A stretch of DNA of 58,700 nucleotides from Planctomycetota bacterium (GTDB lineage: Bacteria > Planctomycetota > Phycisphaerae > UBA1845), in assembly GCA_024276605.1 (NCBI GenBank), contig JAJRWX010000052.1:1-58700 (forward strand). Reading direction: 5' to 3'. This document shows, in pieces, positions 13,800-25,279 of this stretch (position 1 is the first letter of the stretch; every line of letters starts with the position of its first letter). Under the pieces are notes generated by a model that was not told the origin of the DNA, searched no databases, and saw nothing but the letters and a program-made list of their open reading frames with translations. The translations under genes and the position numbers were made by a program.

Positions 13800-15692
13800 A
13801 TGAAGTTGAAAATAAAATATGTGGGTGTATTCACGGCACTGGGCCTTTGCGTGAGTATGGTAGCCGGCACTTCTTGTGGTGGCGGTTTTTTGGGGTTGCA
13901 GGATTTCCAGCGTGATCTGTTGTTTGGCGGATTGTTGGGTGCTGTGTTGTTGAACCAGCCACCTGCTGGCGATGCCGTTGCGGGTACGCCTATTCCCGGA
14001 CCAGTCGGAGAGCAGGGTGTTCCCGGCGCAGATGGTGCTGAAGGACCGCAAGGTCCAGTTGGCCCACCAGGGCCGCAGGGACCGGAGGGTGAAGAGGGAC
14101 CGGCGGGTCCAGCCGGTGCGGACGGCACCTCGGGCGGTGCCGGTTCTCAAGGACCACGCGGACCGGCGGGTCCGGAGTTTTTTAGTACCTTTATTGATGA
14201 CTTTTTCACGACCGTTGACGGGCAATTGAGGAGCTTCACTCCTGTAGAAGTGGTAAGCATTGTAGAGCCTGCTCTGGGTGGCGGAGGAGTGCCACGTGGT
14301 GAAGTGGAAAATGCTATTGCTTATCGTGTGGCTATTCCTAATTCATATCACCCTGGTCATGATGTGACCATGCGGATGACATTTTTACGTTCTGGTGCTA
14401 TCGAGGAAGAATGTTTCATCCTTTCCATTAAAGCTGCCCGATTGCGTGCCGGCGAATCGATCACTGAATATGGTGAACCACTGTTGTTATCGATTCCAAG
14501 CCCCGTGGAAGAAATGCCTGATCAGCTCGAAGGAGTTCCACCTCCTGCTGACACAGGTACGTTGGTCATTGTCGATATTCCCATCAATGCGACGCCCGGA
14601 TTTCAGGATGATGAGTCCTTGTCGATAAGTGATTTATTGGCCTTTGAGCTATCAACCGCACTTGCTAACGGCGCCACCTATCAGATCCTTGGCGTGGAAT
14701 TCTTTGAGTCTAATGGTGCAACTTTAGAAGGCGCCACTGTGGTTGATGAGCTTTGTTGCTTCACGACACTTCAGCCGACTGGTGGCCCATTGGTTCCAGA
14801 TGATCATCTTTTCGTGTGGGATGAGGATACGATTTATGTGTCTGACGTTTCTACCATGGCCATGATTAGCAATATATCGGGTAGTGCTACAACTTGTGGG
14901 GGTAGCAGTAATTCATGCGGGGGATATGACGATGGTCGTCACATGATCTTCGACACTGCCGGTCAGCGCTTTTTTGTTTCGAACCACGACCGTGACTTTG
15001 ATGTGTACGACACAACGGGTGCTGAACAGACAGTTACTTGGGGGATATCACTGATTGAACCACTTGGTATGGCGCCGCTGCCCAACGGGCAACTACTGAT
15101 TACCGACGAGGAAGATTCTGTAGCGATATTCCGCATCAATCAGGATCTGACGGAAGATGCCCGCGGTGATGGTGTAGCCTCTTTCGATGGCGCAGAGGGT
15201 GTAGCCTATAACGCCGTTCACGATCTGATTTACGTAGCTGACGAAGATGACGACGATATTGAGGTATTCGATGGAACGACACTCGAGTACTTGGGTGGTA
15301 CGTTTACGAACTGCTCAAGTGATGCTGCCTATTGGCTCGGTGTGGATGGTAGTAGCAATCGCCTCTTCATGTTGGCGGATAGTAAATGTCCCGGCAACTT
15401 CCAGACTGGAAACTATGGCGTCCACGTATTCAAGATGGGATGCCAGCCAGGTGACCTCGTGTTCGAACAAACATTACTCGGTTCCAATGGCGGTAGTGGT
15501 GATTGCTATGGTACGCTTACAGTCAGTGAAAGTACCAATCGTCTTTTTGCCATCGATTATTGTAGCGACACGGTGGATATATATGACACAATGACTTTAC
15601 AGAAATTAGGGTCGGTACCGGTCGAACGCGCCGGGACGGCTCCACTGATGGTTACCGTGGGGCATCTAAACGAAGTGAATGGACCTCAATAG
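13800..15692 (+). CDS. collagen-like surface protein with C-terminal propeller
   Basis: 630 aa and the second paralogue. The signal segment ends GTSC (about residue 23) and is a possible lipoprotein signal. The conserved segment ([15 protein letters not shown]) precedes 20 Gly-X-Y triplets and the shared domain of about 190 residues with [12 protein letters not shown]. The C-terminal part (about 320-630) has repeated strands such as [24 protein letters not shown] and [17 protein letters not shown], consistent with a YncE/NHL-like beta-propeller. There are no calcium repeats here. It lies 96 bp after its paralogue and probably arose by tandem duplication with exchange of the C-terminal module. 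Confidence 0.78.
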
Positions 15693-15798
15693 TCGTGTAC
15701 GTTAGTTGTGACAAAAGTTATGAGAAGAGATTGGTTCCAGCGACTTGGCAATATATTCCTCCAGGTGTGACGCACCTCGGAGCGGGAGCAGGATCGTC

Positions 15799-18228
15799 AT
15801 GAAACATAAACGCAGATTACTTGAAAGCGTAGTAGCAGTTAGCCTCACCGCTTGTTTGTTGATGAAGGTAGGGTGCAGCGGTGGATTTCTTAGGCTTCAA
15901 GACTATCAGCGCGATCTGATCTTTGGCGGCTTGGCTACGGCGCTACTGCTTAACCAGCCGGCACCTGCCGGTGATGGTGGGGCCGGTAATCCCATTCCCG
16001 GACCAACTGGTGAGCAGGGTATCCCGGGTGCAGTTGGTGAGGATGGGGCGCAAGGGCCGGTGGGTCCACAAGGACCACAAGGCCCCGAAGGACCGACAGG
16101 GCCGGAGGGACCGGCAGGAATAGACGGTACGTCCGGTGGTTCAGGTTCACAAGGGCCATCTGGACCGACAGGGCCGGCGGTATTCAATACTTTCATCGAT
16201 GATTTCTTTGCCTTTGATGGAACATCCGGCAATTTACAACCGGGTGTCGTGATTATTTCTGAACCGGCTCTCGGCGGTTCACCTTTAGCACGTACATCTA
16301 ATTCAGCTATTGCTTACCGAGTTTCTGTTCCGCAAACGTACACCGTAGGTCAACCAGTTACGATGCGCATGTTCTTCCATCGCACCGGAGACATTTTAGA
16401 TTCATGTTTTGTCTTTTCGGTTACGGGTGTACGTCTGCGCGATGGAGAAGGCGTCAGTAGTTATGGCGAAACAATTTGGTTATCTATTGACAACTCAGGA
16501 AAGGTCATGCCAACGCGACAAGTTGCGGAAGCCCTGCTAGGGGAGAACGGCATCGCCGGTGAATTGGTTGTTGTCGATTTGCCGATCAATGCTGCGCCTG
16601 GCATCGTAGACCCCATCGCGCTGGCTCGGGCGGATTTTTTAGCCTTTGAACTAGCTACAGCCAAGCTAGACGGGTCGTTATATCAAATATTGGGTGTAGA
16701 GTTTTTCGCCTCGGATGCAGCAGCCTCACTTTTTGGTGCGACGATAGCCGGTCCGTTCGGTGTTGAGGATCCGATAGTTTGTCCATGCGATGGGTCCAGC
16801 CAAGATTGCAACAACAACGGTCGTCCCGATGACTGTGAAATCAAGGAAGATCCCGGTTTAGATTGTAACAACAACGGTGTGTTGGATGAGTGTGAAGACT
16901 GTGACGGAAATGGCATTCCGGATGATTGTGACATCAACTGCGACAGTACAGCATGTATGGCATGTACTGATTATTCAATTGCAGCAGGTGAGTTGATTTG
17001 TGCTAATGATTGCAATCAAAATGGCATTCCGGATAGTTGCGATATCGGCAATATCTCTAATGATTGCGACGAGAATCAAATCCCCGACGAATGTGAACTT
17101 GATGGAAATGACTGTGATGGTAACGGCATTCTGGACACTTGCGATATTGCCACTGACCCGCTATTGGACTGCGACGGTGATAGTGTGCTTAACGAGTGTG
17201 AGTTGGATCCCGCTGAGCAAGACTGCAACCTCAACGGTATTTGCGACGGCATCGAAATTACCAGTTCTGTTTTTGTGTCTACGCTAGACTCAACAACTGG
17301 GGCAACCATCAATACATTTTCGGTAGGGCTTGCCTTCGACCAATTCGTACCGTTCATCGAGGTGGACGCGTCGGCGAACATCTGGGTTGGAAGAAATGAC
17401 ACTGGTCACGGCACGAATCAGTTCAACCCCAACGACAACGTGGCGAAATTCTCGCCGACCGGAACAGAACTTTTGACCTTGAAAGGTCCGATGCGGAATC
17501 CAACTGCACTAGCAGTTGACTCGATAGGTAATATATACGTGGGTGGAACGCCGGATGGTGGAAGTCTTTCAGTGAACAAAATCTACAAGTATGACTCAAA
17601 CGGAGTTTTCTTGACAAGTTTCGGTGAGCTTACCGGTGCGGCATTAGGTGCTACGTACTTTGTATTTGAATTTGCGCCTGGCGATCGTCTTTTTGCGACG
17701 ACTAGTAATCCGCACAGAGTTTTTGAATATACCACTGCAGGTGTTCAAGTAAATGTTGTCAACGCAAATCTCCGCTTTGGACGCGGTTTGGCTATCAGCC
17801 CTGATGGAACGACCCTGTGGAACTATCAACCCAGGAACGGCCCAGGAGAAGATATTATTGTTGCCTATGACCTCGATCTTACCGTACTCTCTTCTTTTGG
17901 CTTAAATCCGATTGGGAATCCACAACTTTGGGGGATGGATACCCTACAGAACGATAATCTCGTAGCACGAGCAGGTAGCAGGATTATCGAGATATCTCCG
18001 ACGGGTACATTGATTTCGGAGCTTGACTTTTCATCAATCGATACAGGCAATAGTCATCGGAGAGGATTTACAGTTGATAATAGCGGTAATTTTCTGGTAA
18101 GCCATGCCGGCACGCCGGTAGCTGATTGCAATAGCAACGGGCTACCTGATGACTGCGATATCGCAGCAGATCCGGGCTTGGATCTCAATGGGAATGGAAT
18201 CATAGATGCGTGCGAGGATTTAGATTAA
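15799..18228 (+). CDS. collagen-like surface protein with calcium repeats and propeller
   Basis: 809 aa from the ATG at 15799 (AGGA upstream); a TTG 54 bases earlier is in frame but less likely. This is the third paralogue. The signal segment ends KVGC, followed by the [10 protein letters not shown] segment, 20 Gly-X-Y triplets, and the shared domain with [12 protein letters not shown]. About eight DCxxNxxPDxC-type calcium-binding repeats come next (about residues 340-490), then a propeller-like region with NHL-type strands ([18 protein letters not shown]). Two more calcium-type repeats close the protein ([23 protein letters not shown]). This is the longest member and combines modules from the other two. 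The function is unknown; cell-surface binding is an inference. Confidence 0.78.
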
Positions 18229-20722: not shown

Positions 20723-20751
20723 TTGACGCATCTAGGCGAAGCGGTTATTGG
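20723..20751 (+). promoter_or_regulatory. candidate sigma-70 promoter for riboswitch operon
   Basis: TTGACG at 20723-20728 and TATTGG at 20746-20751 are 17 bases apart. The -35 is good and the -10 weak. The site lies about 50 bp upstream of the cobalamin riboswitch P1 stem, the expected place for its promoter. Confidence 0.3.
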
Positions 20752-20802
20752 TGATGTTTATGCAGTCGCACGGACTGCTGTCCTTTGACAAGTGTATATG
20801 TC

Positions 20803-21005
20803 GCGATTGACGGTTTCCATGTTAACGTGGAATAAAAGGGAAGGTGGTGAAAAGCCACCGTGGACCCGCCGCTGTGATCGGGGACGAACGCCGCAAAGAG
20901 CCATTGACGTATCTTGTTTTCAGGCCATTAAGCTTGAAAGCAATACCGTCGAGAAGGCGTGGTTAGTAGGATGATCCGTAAGCCAGAAGACCTGCCGACA
21001 ATCGC
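20803..21005 (+). ncRNA. cobalamin (adenosylcobalamin) riboswitch
   Basis: The conserved core elements appear in order: AAAGGGAA at about 20835, a GGTGGTGAAAAGCCACC hairpin, GGACCCGCCGCTGTGA, GGGGACGAACGCCGC, an AGCCATTG segment, and near the 3' end GATGATCCGTAAGCCAGAAG followed by ACCTGCC. These match the consensus of the B12 riboswitch. A closing P1 stem can be drawn from GCGATTG (20803-20809) with CAATCGC (20999-21005). An intrinsic terminator about 100 nt downstream suggests transcriptional control, with expression turned off when cobalamin is plentiful. It sits ahead of three genes for exported proteins. Confidence 0.92.
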
Positions 21006-21048
21006 AGTTTAATGATGTGGTACCTTCGTAGGATTGAGGTGCTGCGAT
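21001..21048 (+). promoter_or_regulatory. candidate alternative pairing (riboswitch expression platform)
   Basis: ATCGCAG at 21001-21007, which contains most of the 3' strand of the riboswitch P1 stem, is perfectly complementary to CTGCGAT at 21042-21048. The two pairings exclude each other, as expected for a switch element. How this connects to the terminator stem further down is not resolved by eye. Confidence 0.4.
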
Positions 21049-21105
21049 CGACGATCCATGGCGAAGTCGGTTTTATTTCGACTTATATTCTATGCGACAA
21101 ATTTG

Positions 21106-21147
21106 ATCCCGGCATCTTCAATTATGAAGGTGCCGGGATTTTTTTTC
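21106..21147 (+). terminator. intrinsic terminator of the B12 riboswitch leader
   Basis: A 15-bp stem (ATCCCGGCATCTTCA at 21106-21120 with its complement at 21125-21139, one G-U pair) has a 4-nt loop and is followed by a run of eight T. It lies between the riboswitch and the first structural gene, the usual place for a ligand-controlled terminator. Confidence 0.88.
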
Positions 21148-21196
21148 GGTCGATGATGGCTGCGAGGATCAGCGAGGCCGAGGAAGGATGCGTTTG

Positions 21197-22303
21197 ATGC
21201 GCATAGGTTATTGGTTTTCTACTCTTATGTTTTTGGGTTCTTTGGGTTCGGTAAAGGTATTGGCTGATGCTTTTGATCTTTATGCATTGGAAGGATCGAT
21301 TGCATTGCCTGCCGGTGCCGGTCCGTTCGATACGCTAGCTGATGGTCGTATCATGACGATCGTAGCTGCGGATATTTTTGTTGAAGATGTTGCCGGTGCG
21401 GGTACGTATAGCCTGTTGGGTGCTTTACCGAATGCAGATATAGCTGGGTTTGGTGCTAGTTTCTTACGTTTGTCACCAAACGGTAGGCAATTGGCTATCG
21501 GAAACAATGGTGGTGCTTCCGGCAGTGATTTTGAGGTGGGTATTTTCGAGGTGGCCACACTAACCGGTCGATGGTTACAGGCTAATTCATTCGATGCCGC
21601 TTGGCTCGATGAAGTGACTTTAGCCATATCTGCTGGTGGTTTTACGACTGGTATTGTGACGATGCTGGACACGACATCATCCGATATAGCCAATCCAATC
21701 AACCCTACAGTGATTTCAAATATCGGCGGTGCTTCCGGAGGGGTAGCGTTTGATGAGGTGGGAAACTTATACACGGGTAACGGGTTTGCAGCGGCAGGCC
21801 CTAGTGGCACGGGGGTAGTGAAGGCCTTTTCGATGTCGGATTGGTCCAACGCATTGAGTACGGCTACCCCGCTTGATTTTGAGGCGGACGGTATGGAAAT
21901 TGTAGACATTTTGTCTGCCAGTTCGCTTGGTTTCGATATGGAAGGAAATCTCCATGTGGCAGGTGGTGACTTTGATTTACCCGAAGTCGATTTTGTGGCA
22001 CTAGTAAGATCAAGCGTAGTGGTATCAGCGCTGGCAGGATTCGGTCCTGCTGACATTAACGACTCTTCCCAGGTCCGGCGGTTGGACCCGGACGTTGTAG
22101 ACAATTTCAACTTTTACTCCGCAGGCTATAGTGCGTCGCTTAGACGCCTTCACCTTCGCAGCTCCGGTTCAACAACGGTTTTTGCCTATGTCGATCCATC
22201 GCAGCCGATTCCCACCGTTTCGACGTGGGGACTTAGTGTCATGTTGTTGACTTTATTTACTGTGGCTACGTTGGTGATGAGAAAACGTGAAGTTGCGTGC
22301 TGA
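21197..22303 (+). CDS. B12-riboswitch-controlled beta-propeller protein with IPTL-CTERM anchor
   Basis: About 368 aa. The ATG at 21197 is chosen because AGGAAGG lies nine bases upstream; the in-frame ATG at 21188 directly abuts that RBS. The N-terminal signal peptide ends VLADA. The body is rich in short strands (SFLRLSPNGRQLAIGNN, GVAFDEVGNLYTGNGF, GFDMEGNLHVAGGD) that resemble a beta-propeller. The C-terminus is an IPTL-CTERM-type sorting signal: IPTVSTWGLS, a hydrophobic helix, then RKRE. Such tails are processed by exosortase-like enzymes (established knowledge); none is in the window. As the first gene behind the B12 riboswitch, it is a candidate cobalamin-binding or scavenging surface protein, by functional analogy to the Bacteroides propeller protein BtuG. 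That role is inference. Confidence 0.75.
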   Translation: MRIGYWFSTLMFLGSLGSVKVLADAFDLYALEGSIALPAGAGPFDTLADGRIMTIVAADIFVEDVAGAGTYSLLGALPNADIAGFGASFLRLSPNGRQLAIGNNGGASGSDFEVGIFEVATLTGRWLQANSFDAAWLDEVTLAISAGGFTTGIVTMLDTTSSDIANPINPTVISNIGGASGGVAFDEVGNLYTGNGFAAAGPSGTGVVKAFSMSDWSNALSTATPLDFEADGMEIVDILSASSLGFDMEGNLHVAGGDFDLPEVDFVALVRSSVVVSALAGFGPADINDSSQVRRLDPDVVDNFNFYSAGYSASLRRLHLRSSGSTTVFAYVDPSQPIPTVSTWGLSVMLLTLFTVATLVMRKREVAC

Positions 22304-22365
22304 TCGTTGGTATGAGGTTAGGTCATGCTCAGCAAAGGTATTAAAGTGACGTCAGATTGTTTGTT

Positions 22366-23508
22366 ATGAATATGTACATCATGTGGACAGTCGTTGCTTT
22401 GGTTCAAGTGCTTTCCGGAGAGGAGCCTTTTGCTGTGCGTGTGATCGACTATTCACCTGCACCGGGGCAGTTTGTCAATGAGTTGTCGGACGACGGATTT
22501 GTAATCAATGATCGTTTGGCTGCGCTTGGTGCCCCTGTTGGCGGTGGGACGTTCGATGGTGCGGTGGATGTCGTCACGCTCGGCGGATTTGGCGGATCGA
22601 TTACGTTGGCTTTCGACCACATGGTGGAGGATCATCCGCTGAATCCGTTTGGCATGGATGCGATTGTGTTTGGTAATGCATGGTGGGTTGTTGGGGATAT
22701 CAACCGACATTGGGCAGAGTGCGGTACGATAGAAATTTCCCTCGACGTTAACCAAAACGACGTGGCTGACGATCCCTGGTACCTGATACCCGGGTCGCAT
22801 ATAGATCAACCGACTTCGCAGTTCATGGGGCAAACATGGGACAGTGATACGTTAGATACAACATATCCGCCCGATGATGCGTCATGGATACCGCCGGATT
22901 TTTTTGTTTCCGGTGCATCGTGGGTGACGACTTTTGCCCATGTCTTGCCGGTGGATGTTTTCGGCAATCCATCCGTTGTGAACCCCTTGTTTGGGACGGG
23001 CCGAGAAGGGATTTTTGGATATGCTGATTATATGCCGACCCTATTTCTCGGCGACTTGGATGGTGATGATTTTGTGGATGACTTCACCGTGACCCCCGAG
23101 GCGTTCTACACCGTACCGGACAATCCATTTTTTACTGGTATCTCGTTGGGGTCAGGAGGTGGTGATGCTTTTGATATTTCGTGGGCGGTTCATCTTGACA
23201 GTGGTTTGCCAGCTGAGCTTCCTGGATTTCATTTCATTCGTATTACGACCGCGGTTAATGCCGTGCTTGGTCCGTTTGGAGAAAAATCAGTTGAAATTGA
23301 TGCGGTTTCTGATGTGTTGCCGGATGTAACAGGTGATGCAGATGGAGATGTGGATATCGATTTGCATGACATTTCTTATGTGCTGACGTGTACGTCCCGT
23401 ATAGAATTCAACAGTTCGTCTTGTGCGCCGGTAGAACAAAACTTGATAAGCATTGAAGACGCGATAGATGTGATTGACGTGATGAGCAGAATAACAGGGC
23501 CTCGATGA
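22366..23508 (+). CDS. exported protein of a B12-locus-associated surface family, dockerin-like tail
   Basis: 380 aa from the ATG at 22366 (a TTG at 22357 is also in frame). A short signal peptide ends near QVLSGEE. The main domain (about residues 20-310) contains blocks such as GGFGGSITLAFDH, NPFGMDAIVFGNA, HWAECGTIEISLDVN and DDPWYLIPGSH. I recognise these from a family of bacterial cell-surface proteins usually annotated only as such. The tail carries an Asp-rich calcium-type loop (DADGDVDIDLHDI) and a second degenerate repeat. It is the second gene after the riboswitch and overlaps the third by four bases. A role in corrinoid capture is suggested only by context. Confidence 0.7.
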   Translation: MNMYIMWTVVALVQVLSGEEPFAVRVIDYSPAPGQFVNELSDDGFVINDRLAALGAPVGGGTFDGAVDVVTLGGFGGSITLAFDHMVEDHPLNPFGMDAIVFGNAWWVVGDINRHWAECGTIEISLDVNQNDVADDPWYLIPGSHIDQPTSQFMGQTWDSDTLDTTYPPDDASWIPPDFFVSGASWVTTFAHVLPVDVFGNPSVVNPLFGTGREGIFGYADYMPTLFLGDLDGDDFVDDFTVTPEAFYTVPDNPFFTGISLGSGGGDAFDISWAVHLDSGLPAELPGFHFIRITTAVNAVLGPFGEKSVEIDAVSDVLPDVTGDADGDVDIDLHDISYVLTCTSRIEFNSSSCAPVEQNLISIEDAIDVIDVMSRITGPR

Positions 23509-24320
23509 TGCTAAGCTGTTCAACTTCGACACGACATCGTCAACATGCTTTTACACTACTTGAAATTCTTGTCGTGATTGGCGTGGTGTCAGCGTTGACA
23601 GCCTTGATGGTTCCTGCACTATCAAAAGCCCGAGAGCAGGCAAATGCCGTTGTGTGTCGATCCAATCTCAATCAAATCATGTTGGCGAATCGGTATTACG
23701 CCGAAGCGAATAACAGTAGATATTGCCCGGGTGCGTCGGATTTTCGGCGTAATCTGAATCGTTGGCACGGCTCGCGTCAGCGCCGGGGTATGTCATTCGA
23801 CTCGTCCGTGGGACCGTTAGCCCAGTACTTAGGCGATACCCAAGGCATAAGAACCTGTCCCAGTTTTCCCGCGGAGCAAATCGCGCAGGAGAGTGGAGGG
23901 TTCGAGCAGGGTAATGGCGGATACGGTTATAACAATGCTTACATCGGTGTCATGGGAGGTAAACAGGCTAGTGGTGCATTTACCATCAAGACGGATCGGT
24001 CCGGTGTGGTTGTAGATTGGGTCGCTAAGCCGGCCAAGACGATCATGTTCACGGATGCAGCCTTTGCCTCCAGGGCACTCATTGAATATAGCTTTACCGA
24101 GCCTAGGTTTCATCCTCGTTATCTGACGTATCGCGCGGACCCTTCCATCCATTTTCGCCACGCGGAAAAAACAGCCAACATTGGCTGGGTGGATGGCCAT
24201 GTGGATACGCAGCGGTTGACATACAGTCATGCTAGTGGGTATTACCCTCTTAATCCCGCTTCCGTCGATATAGGGTGGTTCGGTAAAGCGGATGACAATT
24301 CGGTGTTTGACTTATATTAG
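23505..24320 (+). CDS. type II secretion pseudopilin-like protein (H-X9-DG type)
   Basis: 271 aa. Near the N-terminus is the prepilin cleavage and methylation signature FTLLEILVV followed by a hydrophobic helix (about residues 17-40). A region ending in an H...DG element follows (HAEKTANIGWVDGHV, about residues 220-234), the processing-associated motif common in planctomycete pseudopilin-like proteins (DUF1559 relatives). The start ATG overlaps the stop of the upstream gene (ATGATG/TGA), so it belongs to the riboswitch operon and is probably B12-regulated. It may assemble in a type II secretion-like pseudopilus; a specific link to B12 uptake is not established. Confidence 0.8.
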   Translation: MMLSCSTSTRHRQHAFTLLEILVVIGVVSALTALMVPALSKAREQANAVVCRSNLNQIMLANRYYAEANNSRYCPGASDFRRNLNRWHGSRQRRGMSFDSSVGPLAQYLGDTQGIRTCPSFPAEQIAQESGGFEQGNGGYGYNNAYIGVMGGKQASGAFTIKTDRSGVVVDWVAKPAKTIMFTDAAFASRALIEYSFTEPRFHPRYLTYRADPSIHFRHAEKTANIGWVDGHVDTQRLTYSHASGYYPLNPASVDIGWFGKADDNSVFDLY

Positions 24321-24527: not shown

Positions 24528-24541
24528 CCCCCCCCCCCCCC
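24528..24541 (+). repeat. homopolymeric C14 tract
   Basis: Fourteen consecutive C residues end 21 bases before the ATG of the lipoprotein gene. Tracts this long are prone to slipped-strand length change and could alter promoter spacing or the leader. They are also prone to sequencing error. Confidence 0.9.
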
Positions 24542-24562: not shown

Positions 24563-25279
24563 ATGTGTAAGAGAAGTATTACTTGCGTGATAGTGGCGTT
24601 GTTGGGCTTGAACTATGTGGCATGTAAGCCGTCGCCCGAAACGACTGATCAGCAAAGCTCAACATCAGCGTCTACACCGTCGACTACGGTTGCAACGCCA
24701 ACAACTCAAAACGATCCCGCGTCGTCTGAAGTGTGGTTAAACGCCTGGCACCGGGCAACGCCAACCATACGCGATAGTATGGCAGAAAAGATCGTGTCTG
24801 AGGGGAGTTTATTGGGTAAAACCGAGGACGAAGTCGTGGCATTGCTTGGTAAACCCGATTTTCGGTCTGAAAGACTAGTTTATAGTTTTGTCGTTAGTGA
24901 AAGTGGTGAAAATACCCCTGCGCCATCGCTCACATTGAATCTGGATTGTGATGGACAAGTGGTCACAGCTGGACCGACATCTTTCCCGAGTGATATCACT
25001 CCTGATCCTTTTGATGAGCAGCGATGGCAAAATGGCACCGATCACGATCGTTTTCTTATGACGCCGGCTTTGGCAAAGAGCCATCGATTAAAAGGTATGT
25101 CGCGTGATGCAGCGATTCGACTTCTCGGCGAACCGACACAACGAACATTGCCAAGGATTGCATACTACAGTCGACGCCGAATAGAAGGCAAGCCTGTACC
25201 TACCGGACCAAATCGTAAGTTACTCATCATTTTTAATGAGTCGTTTCAGGTAAATAAAGTGGTCTATACGAAAAAGTAA
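24563..25279 (+). CDS. lipoprotein with two BamE/SmpA-like repeats
   Basis: 238 aa. A lipoprotein signal peptide has its lipobox at YVAC (about residue 21). A Thr/Ser/Pro-rich linker follows (about 25-55). Two copies of the short BamE/OmlA-type helix motif are visible: LLGKTEDEVVALLGKPDF at about 83-100 and LKGMSRDAAIRLLGEPTQ at about 176-193, each followed by strand segments. It is probably anchored in a membrane facing the periplasm. BamE relatives help outer-membrane protein assembly, but two-repeat forms have no assigned role. RBS GTGAGG precedes the ATG. The poly-C tract just upstream may affect expression. Confidence 0.7.
   Translation: MCKRSITCVIVALLGLNYVACKPSPETTDQQSSTSASTPSTTVATPTTQNDPASSEVWLNAWHRATPTIRDSMAEKIVSEGSLLGKTEDEVVALLGKPDFRSERLVYSFVVSESGENTPAPSLTLNLDCDGQVVTAGPTSFPSDITPDPFDEQRWQNGTDHDRFLMTPALAKSHRLKGMSRDAAIRLLGEPTQRTLPRIAYYSRRRIEGKPVPTGPNRKLLIIFNESFQVNKVVYTKK

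Follow-up and report, generated by a model that had tools for sequence, protein, structure and literature searches.

In a window of 58,700 nucleotides (contig JAJRWX010000052.1, positions 1 to 58,700, assembly GCA_024276605.1) from a planctomycete of the class Phycisphaerae, a cobalamin (vitamin B12) riboswitch and an intrinsic terminator are followed by three co-directional exported open reading frames (ORF1 to ORF3). By sequence profiles and predicted fold, ORF2 is a member of the B12-binding BtuH family, and ORF3, as judged from profile comparison, belongs to a separate pilin subfamily that is linked to this operon. Corrinoid acquisition is very likely the role of the operon, and a B12-repressed acquisition operon, working by the mechanism proposed below, is in our judgement likely to be its best explanation. 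The new element is the dedicated pilin, which possibly replaces the BtuB receptor and TonB at the outer membrane. Among the matches listed in the open-access literature searched, we found no description of a B12 operon with a pilin, and nothing relevant to B12 riboswitches with pilins, to BtuH or BtuB in planctomycetes, or to pilin families. The features of the operon are as follows.

20794-21013, + strand: cobalamin riboswitch aptamer (RF00174, complete model; strong leader fold)
21001-21048, + strand: possible switching stem (read directly in the sequence)
21105-21148, + strand: intrinsic terminator, 16-bp stem and T run (terminator scan, RNA folds)
21197-22303, + strand: ORF1, exported beta-propeller (open reading frame; alternative in-frame ATG at 21188)
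22202-22300, + strand: IPTL-CTERM-like tail of ORF1 (IPTVSTWG, hydrophobic stretch, RKR; motif read directly, models below cut-off)
22366-23508, + strand: ORF2, exported BtuH-domain protein, probable corrinoid-binding component (profile, Foldseek, structural Z; alternative start TTG at 22357)
23332-23505, + strand: dockerin-like acidic tail of ORF2, beginning GDADGDVDIDLHD (read directly)
23505-24320, + strand: ORF3, prepilin-type protein of an operon-specific subfamily (PF07963; A3 profile)

The riboswitch and the exported proteins

The Rfam cobalamin model RF00174 matches 20794-21013 on the forward strand at 116.1 bits (cut-off 31.5, E 1.9e-28). The alignment covers all model positions from 1 to 189 and passes the gathering score, which bears out the well-formed B12 riboswitch that an earlier note on this DNA had described. 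It is the only RF00174 match in the source genome, a draft of 110 contigs that is 96% complete. RNA folding of the leader (20794-21150) gives a structure much stronger than that of shuffled sequence (z -6.21). The terminator claimed ahead of the genes is also present, as a stem of 16 pairs (8 of them G-C) with a 4-nt loop at 21105-21140, followed by a T run. Since the terminator scan of the region returned 9 terminator-like sites, where shuffled sequences gave 4.3 on average, the number of sites carries little weight by itself, and it is the stem length that counts. The 3' arm of aptamer helix P1, AUCGCAG at 21001-21007, is complementary to CUGCGAU at 21042-21048, and this alternative pairing could be the switch. 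The three ORFs are as closely spaced as had been claimed: ORF3 overlaps ORF2 by 4 nt, and the next gene on the same strand (24563-25279) starts 243 nt beyond ORF3.

The earlier note had left ORF2 in an unassigned surface family, and a Pfam scan of ORF2 indeed returned no match at E up to 1. A profile of 36 ORF2 homologues (A1) gives it a family: among the PDB sequences it matches residues 392-658 of 8blw_B (E 2.2e-16) and 7biz_A (E 4.6e-12), and no further sequence at E up to 10. Modelled with AlphaFold (pLDDT 82.5), ORF2 leads to the same two structures. Foldseek reports three matches below 0.001, all from these two entries (1.6e-15 and 4.5e-14), with the first other entry at 0.68, and VIA-align superposes the model on BtuH2 and on the BtuH half of BtuG1 with Z of 21.5 across 234 residues and 21.3 across 233 (rmsd 3.5). 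7BIZ is the structure of BtuH2 (BT_1956) with cyanocobalamin (PMC8941943); the entry title of 8BLW names BtuB1 with lipoprotein BtuG1, and BtuG1 bears a C-terminal extension homologous to BtuH2 (PMC10404256). According to the abstract of its description, the BtuH2 domain then had no known structural homologues (PMC8941943). Two of the contacts that BtuH2 makes at the B12 phosphate and ribose, taken from the contact list in PMC8941943, are retained in ORF2 and its relatives: Q333 in 14 and N399 in all 15 of the aligned proteins. A DxNxNGxxDDxW-type stretch also aligns. The published conservation analysis likewise showed the BtuH pocket to be conserved near the phosphate (PMC8941943). ORF2 would be expected to bind B12. 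A membership in the family of the Leptospira lipoprotein LIC_13355 was considered and rejected, as the NCBIfam model scores 27.3 bits under a cut-off of 120 and the BtuH match is far stronger; a Leptospira paper looked through for LIC_13355 does not contain the term. A relative carries a Dockerin_1 domain (PF00404, 4.8e-12), and a search of viral contigs with ORF2 gave nothing useful.

ORF1 is predicted to be a beta-propeller (AlphaFold pLDDT 84.3), nearest to Pizza6, NHL, PQQ and SMP-30-type propellers at Z of about 20-22. The propeller of the earlier note is supported by this model; its IPTL-CTERM anchor is visible as a tail but stays below the model cut-offs, at 13.4 bits against 20.8 for Pfam IPTL-CTERM and 21.2 against 45 for NF033207. 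The likeness to BtuG that the note had drawn comes down to the common propeller fold. Compared with PDB sequences, ORF1 gave nothing convincing (best E 0.31), BtuG was not among the matches, and ORF1 was accordingly filed as a propeller rather than as BtuG. BtuG2 has seven blades (PMC10404256); as ORF1 is nearest to other propeller folds, its identity as BtuG is not established. The case for corrinoid capture, which we regard as well supported by profile and model comparisons, comes from ORF2 and not from the propeller. ORF1 is matched in 20 of the 198 class genomes, in one (G065) through the tail only. Homologues of ORF1 and ORF2 are fused in one frame in G083, G181, G119, L094 and L128. Nine further loci (L052, L061, L062, L065, L066, L067, L078, L089, L091) hold another type of propeller in the operon, found with a profile seeded from L065 at E < 1e-100; the one tested of the nine, from L052, is BamB/PQQ-like.

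Beyond the operon, 24563-25279 encodes a small exported protein with a weak BamE match, and a run of 14 C at 24528-24541, just ahead of it, is a possible slippage site. Elsewhere in the window, 13800-15692 and 15745-18228 encode adjoining exported proteins that look related to each other; they contain collagen-like repeats and show weak matches of propeller type.

Linkage across genomes

Among 198 Phycisphaerae genomes, RF00174 is matched in 180 and ORF2 in 60. We used 62 of the 65 ORF2 rows listed, dropping three second fragments, together with the riboswitch positions for the genomes of interest. Among the riboswitch matches listed, at least 41 of the 62 rows are preceded on their own strand by a riboswitch, at a distance of 145-2,369 nt. 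Eighteen of the other 21 lie in genomes without a position among the riboswitch matches listed, and three (G154, G012, G069) have their listed riboswitch elsewhere in the genome; the G154 row spans only the ORF2 tail, while G012 and G069 each contain another riboswitch outside the listed positions. Two of the 18 (G177, G183) come from genomes without any RF00174 match. Short loci were available for eight of the 18: the riboswitch stands beside the gene in L020, L025, L027, L028 and L030, and no riboswitch does so in L021, L022 and L026.

The composition of the operon was counted with profiles in 61 riboswitch loci, namely the window and 60 others, which were hand-picked rather than random and comprise 32 with an ORF2 match (window included) and 29 without. 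Many of these loci had also gone into the profile models, and gene starts in relatives were set mechanically. A pilin is present in 53 loci, a BtuH domain in 49, both in 46 and neither in 5. Among the 29 loci picked without an ORF2 match, a pilin is present in 23, a BtuH domain in 17 and both in 16. Four of the five loci with neither would be ordinary targets of B12 riboswitches, to judge from their sequences. L076 encodes a TonB receptor, ExbB-type and TonB-type proteins and a FecCD permease, and its other ORFs read like late corrinoid-synthesis genes. L082, L083 and L084 open with a family of ~700 aa whose sequence starts resemble ribonucleotide reductase by eye, joined in L083 by a MetE-like protein further on, also by eye. 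The fifth locus with neither pilin nor BtuH domain is L086.

Relatives in named records extend the linkage. The best 80 of 413, whose record titles are mostly Phycisphaerae, Phycisphaerales or Planctomycetota and some of which overlap the set of 198, match the BtuH profile in all 80 cases and the pilin profile in 72. In 40 of these genomes, with riboswitch and locus paired by coordinates, 39 have a riboswitch match (37 above the cut-off), and in 37 the riboswitch lies 1.2-1.8 kb upstream of the gene, including L096 and L123, where it scores under the Rfam cut-off. The exceptions are L097 and L103, which lie near the ends of their contigs, and L128, whose contig is 3 kb long. Across the phylum, the BtuH domain is found in 65 of 392 genomes, 34 of the 41 in the class and 31 of the 351 outside it. 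Fifteen of these 31 were followed up and 13 scanned for riboswitches; all 13 loci from other planctomycete classes have one on the right strand. The association of BtuH with the B12 riboswitch extends beyond Phycisphaerae, and the pilin looks to be mainly a feature of that class. The linkage of the homologues to B12 riboswitches, whose absence the earlier note counted among what would refute its reading, holds with few exceptions (at least 41 of 62, 37 of 40, 13 of 13). One locus outside the class (L204:3877-5969) has the reversed gene order of riboswitch, pilin and BtuH-domain protein. The family is also carried by L162, titled Armatimonadota, and L171, titled Deltaproteobacteria, where transfer or mislabelled bins are possible.

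ORF3 was called a pseudopilin in the earlier note, and its prepilin N-methylation motif does score above the cut-offs (PF07963, 23.7 bits against 21.2; TIGR02532, 18 bits against 16.3); the comparison adds that it is a conserved part of the operon. At the C-terminus, ORF3 has an H-x10-DG motif and many relatives have H-x9-DG, and the main branch of the subfamily is marked by RWHG, GGYGYN and IGWFG. A profile of 35 operon pilins (A3), 34 of which have the N-methylation motif, separates the subfamily from other pilins. ORF3 is the best A3 match in the source genome (1.4e-95, against 8.0e-26 for the runner-up), and in all of eight genomes the operon pilin is the top match, at 6.1e-76 to 1.0e-99, with the best other at 4.2e-42. 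These eight genomes, of 3-5 Mb, hold 19-65 A3 matches each, and by simple arithmetic about 0.01-0.05 A3 pilins would be expected by chance in a same-strand stretch of 6.5 kb. At E up to 0.01, TIGR04294 matches 11 and DUF1559 17 of the 35 members, with ORF3 in neither set.

Sister operons contain further components. L075 runs from a DUF4465 protein with a PEP-CTERM-like tail (below cut-off) through a BtuH-domain protein and the pilin to Peripla_BP_2, ABC_tran and FecCD proteins, of BtuF, BtuD and BtuC types. Tests of 10 further operon proteins turned up DUF4465 in 4 more (L073, L074, L077, L079), and the Pfam scan of ORF1 to ORF3 gave no match to it (PF14717). DUF4465 is the B12-binding family BtuJ (PMC12751083). 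Eight distantly related members bind B12, one of them ('Pan') from Mucisphaera calidilacus (PMC13398666), which the title of PMC8882080 places in Phycisphaerae. Members are co-located with TonB barrels, plugs and propellers (PMC13398666); the text of that paper contains none of the terms pilin, PEP-CTERM and Planctomycet. In L073 (1060-2844), BtuH and DUF4465 domains share one protein of 595 aa directly ahead of the pilin. L051, L053, L078 and L079 have a family of ~252 aa behind the pilin, ComF-like by eye.

A proposed mechanism for corrinoid acquisition and its alternatives

We propose that, at low cellular B12, the riboswitch would leave the terminator unformed, so that read-through allows the three exported proteins to be made. 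The BtuH-domain protein ORF2 would catch corrinoids either extracellularly or at the outer membrane, and the ORF1 propeller with its sorting-type tail may be an anchored partner of ORF2, as the fusion of the two in some relatives suggests. The prepilin ORF3 would enter a pilus or pseudopilus built by general machinery, which would display the capture proteins or help the bound vitamin through the outer membrane. Once in the periplasm, the corrinoid would be taken in by a BtuFCD-type ABC importer encoded elsewhere. The capture proteins would be located at the surface, and a FecCD-type permease elsewhere in the genome would be the B12 permease. FecCD is found in 192 of the 198 class genomes, and the family also imports iron complexes. 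The suggestion in the earlier note of corrinoid capture with a different anchoring route gains from the BtuH homology and predicted fold of ORF2 and from the position of its homologues behind B12 riboswitches.

The need for such a system was assessed in 24 genomes, chosen mostly for the absence of the TonB barrel PF00593 (19 of 24). CbiC, which is one marker and not the whole synthesis pathway, was found in none of them and B12-binding enzyme domains in all, so these organisms probably need B12 from outside. The plug domain occurs in five, the same five that have the barrel; the remaining 19, including the single-contig genomes G002 and G038, have no detectable barrel or plug, though divergent receptors could escape the models. 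PF00593 is present in 80 of the 198 class genomes, and in 23 of the 46 genomes with BtuH and pilin at the riboswitch.

The alternative that survives best limits the pilin to a part in secretion or assembly. A type II-like pseudopilus would export or position the BtuH and propeller proteins, and B12 would enter by a porin, by a channel not yet recognised or by a TonB receptor. We give this close to an even chance, on the lower side. The GspG and ComGC models match 34 of the 35 A3 members at E up to 0.01 (ORF3 itself is under both cut-offs), class genomes are rich in pilins, as the A3 counts in eight genomes attest, and the source genome has two TonB-dependent receptors, with no other found (L192 and L193; C98 and C99). 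One of the two is nearest to haem-type models and has a TonB gene beside it, the other is nearest to TOL_0244 and stands beside an ABC_sub_bind protein; both are also below the cut-offs of the haem-type and TOL_0244-type models, and no riboswitch was found in the stretches around them. Neither could be accepted as BtuB, as their TIGR01779 scores of 90.0 and 113.7 fall far short of the cut-off of 599.7. A pilin confined to secretion fits less well with the use of one pilin subfamily tied to the B12 operon instead of a shared pilin, and with the 19 selected genomes that lack both barrel and plug. Entry by porin faces the size of cobalamin, ~1,355 Da. Generic porins pass molecules of up to about 600 Da only (PMC5394234).

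That the pilin takes a direct part in outer-membrane passage is, by comparison, a tentative and rather unlikely element of our proposal. In its general form, Phycisphaerae would take up cobamides by a TonB-independent pilus route in which a B12-regulated prepilin fibre replaces BtuB, which we consider unlikely as it stands. A retractable fibre, formed or tipped by the prepilin, would carry BtuH-type and BtuJ-type catchers and pull the vitamin they have bound into the periplasm by way of a secretin or crateriform pore, so that a vitamin-uptake pilus would be comparable in principle to DNA-uptake pseudopili.

Several observations weigh against the acquisition operon as proposed. A TonB barrel (PF00593) also occurs in 32 of the 60 genomes where ORF2 is matched. 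The window's operon encodes no TonB receptor or BtuB, and the two receptors of the source genome make a conventional route possible in this organism. Seven of the 61 loci have a pilin but no BtuH match, and three have a BtuH match but no pilin. No pilin was found at 14 of the 15 loci from other classes within the stretches examined, which means that the pilin is not required for BtuH function everywhere. G177 and G183 have an ORF2 match and no RF00174 match in the genome. The propeller fold is generic, and no BtuG stands among the structural matches listed for ORF1. The corrin-ring contacts H476, Y510, W511 and W577 of BtuH2 are not kept in the 15 aligned proteins, where the loops are hard to align, so the affinity or ligand of ORF2 may differ.

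This last point also feeds a further alternative, that ORF2 keeps the BtuH fold and binds a different corrinoid, a precursor or a non-corrinoid. The next structural neighbours of ORF2, a PAPP-A domain (Z 10.1) and carbohydrate-binding modules (Z 7-9), would suit such a ligand, but the phosphate-pocket residues are kept and B12-riboswitch control runs across the class and other planctomycete classes, which makes this reading improbable. Least probable of all is a B12-responsive surface or adhesion structure, for instance towards B12-producing partners or particles, with no uptake of its own: the prepilin, sorting-tail and dockerin-like parts and the want of a transporter in the window's operon are compatible with it, but BtuH and DUF4465 are B12-binding families (PMC8941943, PMC13398666), the L075 operon runs on into BtuF, BtuD and BtuC types, and the 24 genomes without CbiC have B12-binding enzyme domains.

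Comparison with known systems

BtuH has been described in gut Bacteroidetes as an accessory of BtuB, with three Firmicutes homologues noted (PMC8941943). Here the BtuH domain appears with a dedicated pilin in most of the Phycisphaerae B12-riboswitch loci examined (46 of 61), also in genomes without signs of a TonB transporter. The passage of large or scarce nutrients through the planctomycete outer membrane, an open question, can thereby be tied to a specific gene set; one subfamily among the many planctomycete pilins gains a suggested function, and studies of B12 ecology in waters and sediments could set out from this operon.

ORF2 shares with Bacteroides BtuH2 the domain itself, by profile and fold, a signal peptide (by reading), control by a B12 riboswitch and the equivalents of Q333 and N399. 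Unlike BtuH2, it has no lipobox cysteine near its start (read directly) and no PKD domains; it bears a dockerin-like tail, and some relatives have PEP-CTERM tails. Its operon also differs in having no BtuB and in the pilin that follows, and its corrin-ring contacts are changed. The arrangement of a propeller adjoining or fused to a BtuH domain recalls BtuG1/BtuGH of B. thetaiotaomicron (8BLW), but ORF1 has no sequence match to BtuG, its nearest folds are Pizza6, NHL and SMP-30-like, and no BtuB partner is encoded in the operon. BtuJ/DUF4465 proteins occur in several sister operons, mostly with PEP-CTERM-type tails, and not in the window's operon. The A3 pilins resemble the planctomycete H-X9-DG/DUF1559 prepilins in their N-methylation motif and C-terminal H-x(9-10)-DG, but form a separate subfamily tied to the B12 operon. 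The nearest precedent for the proposed route is found in Planctopirus and Gemmata, where pili-like fibres of crateriform structures bind dextran and a role in uptake has been speculated (PMC5394234). As in our proposal, a planctomycete fibre system is suggested there for uptake across the outer membrane, with no pilin gene assigned in the account available to us. These fibres may be linked to the B12 operon, and by analogy a B12 version of them would fit.

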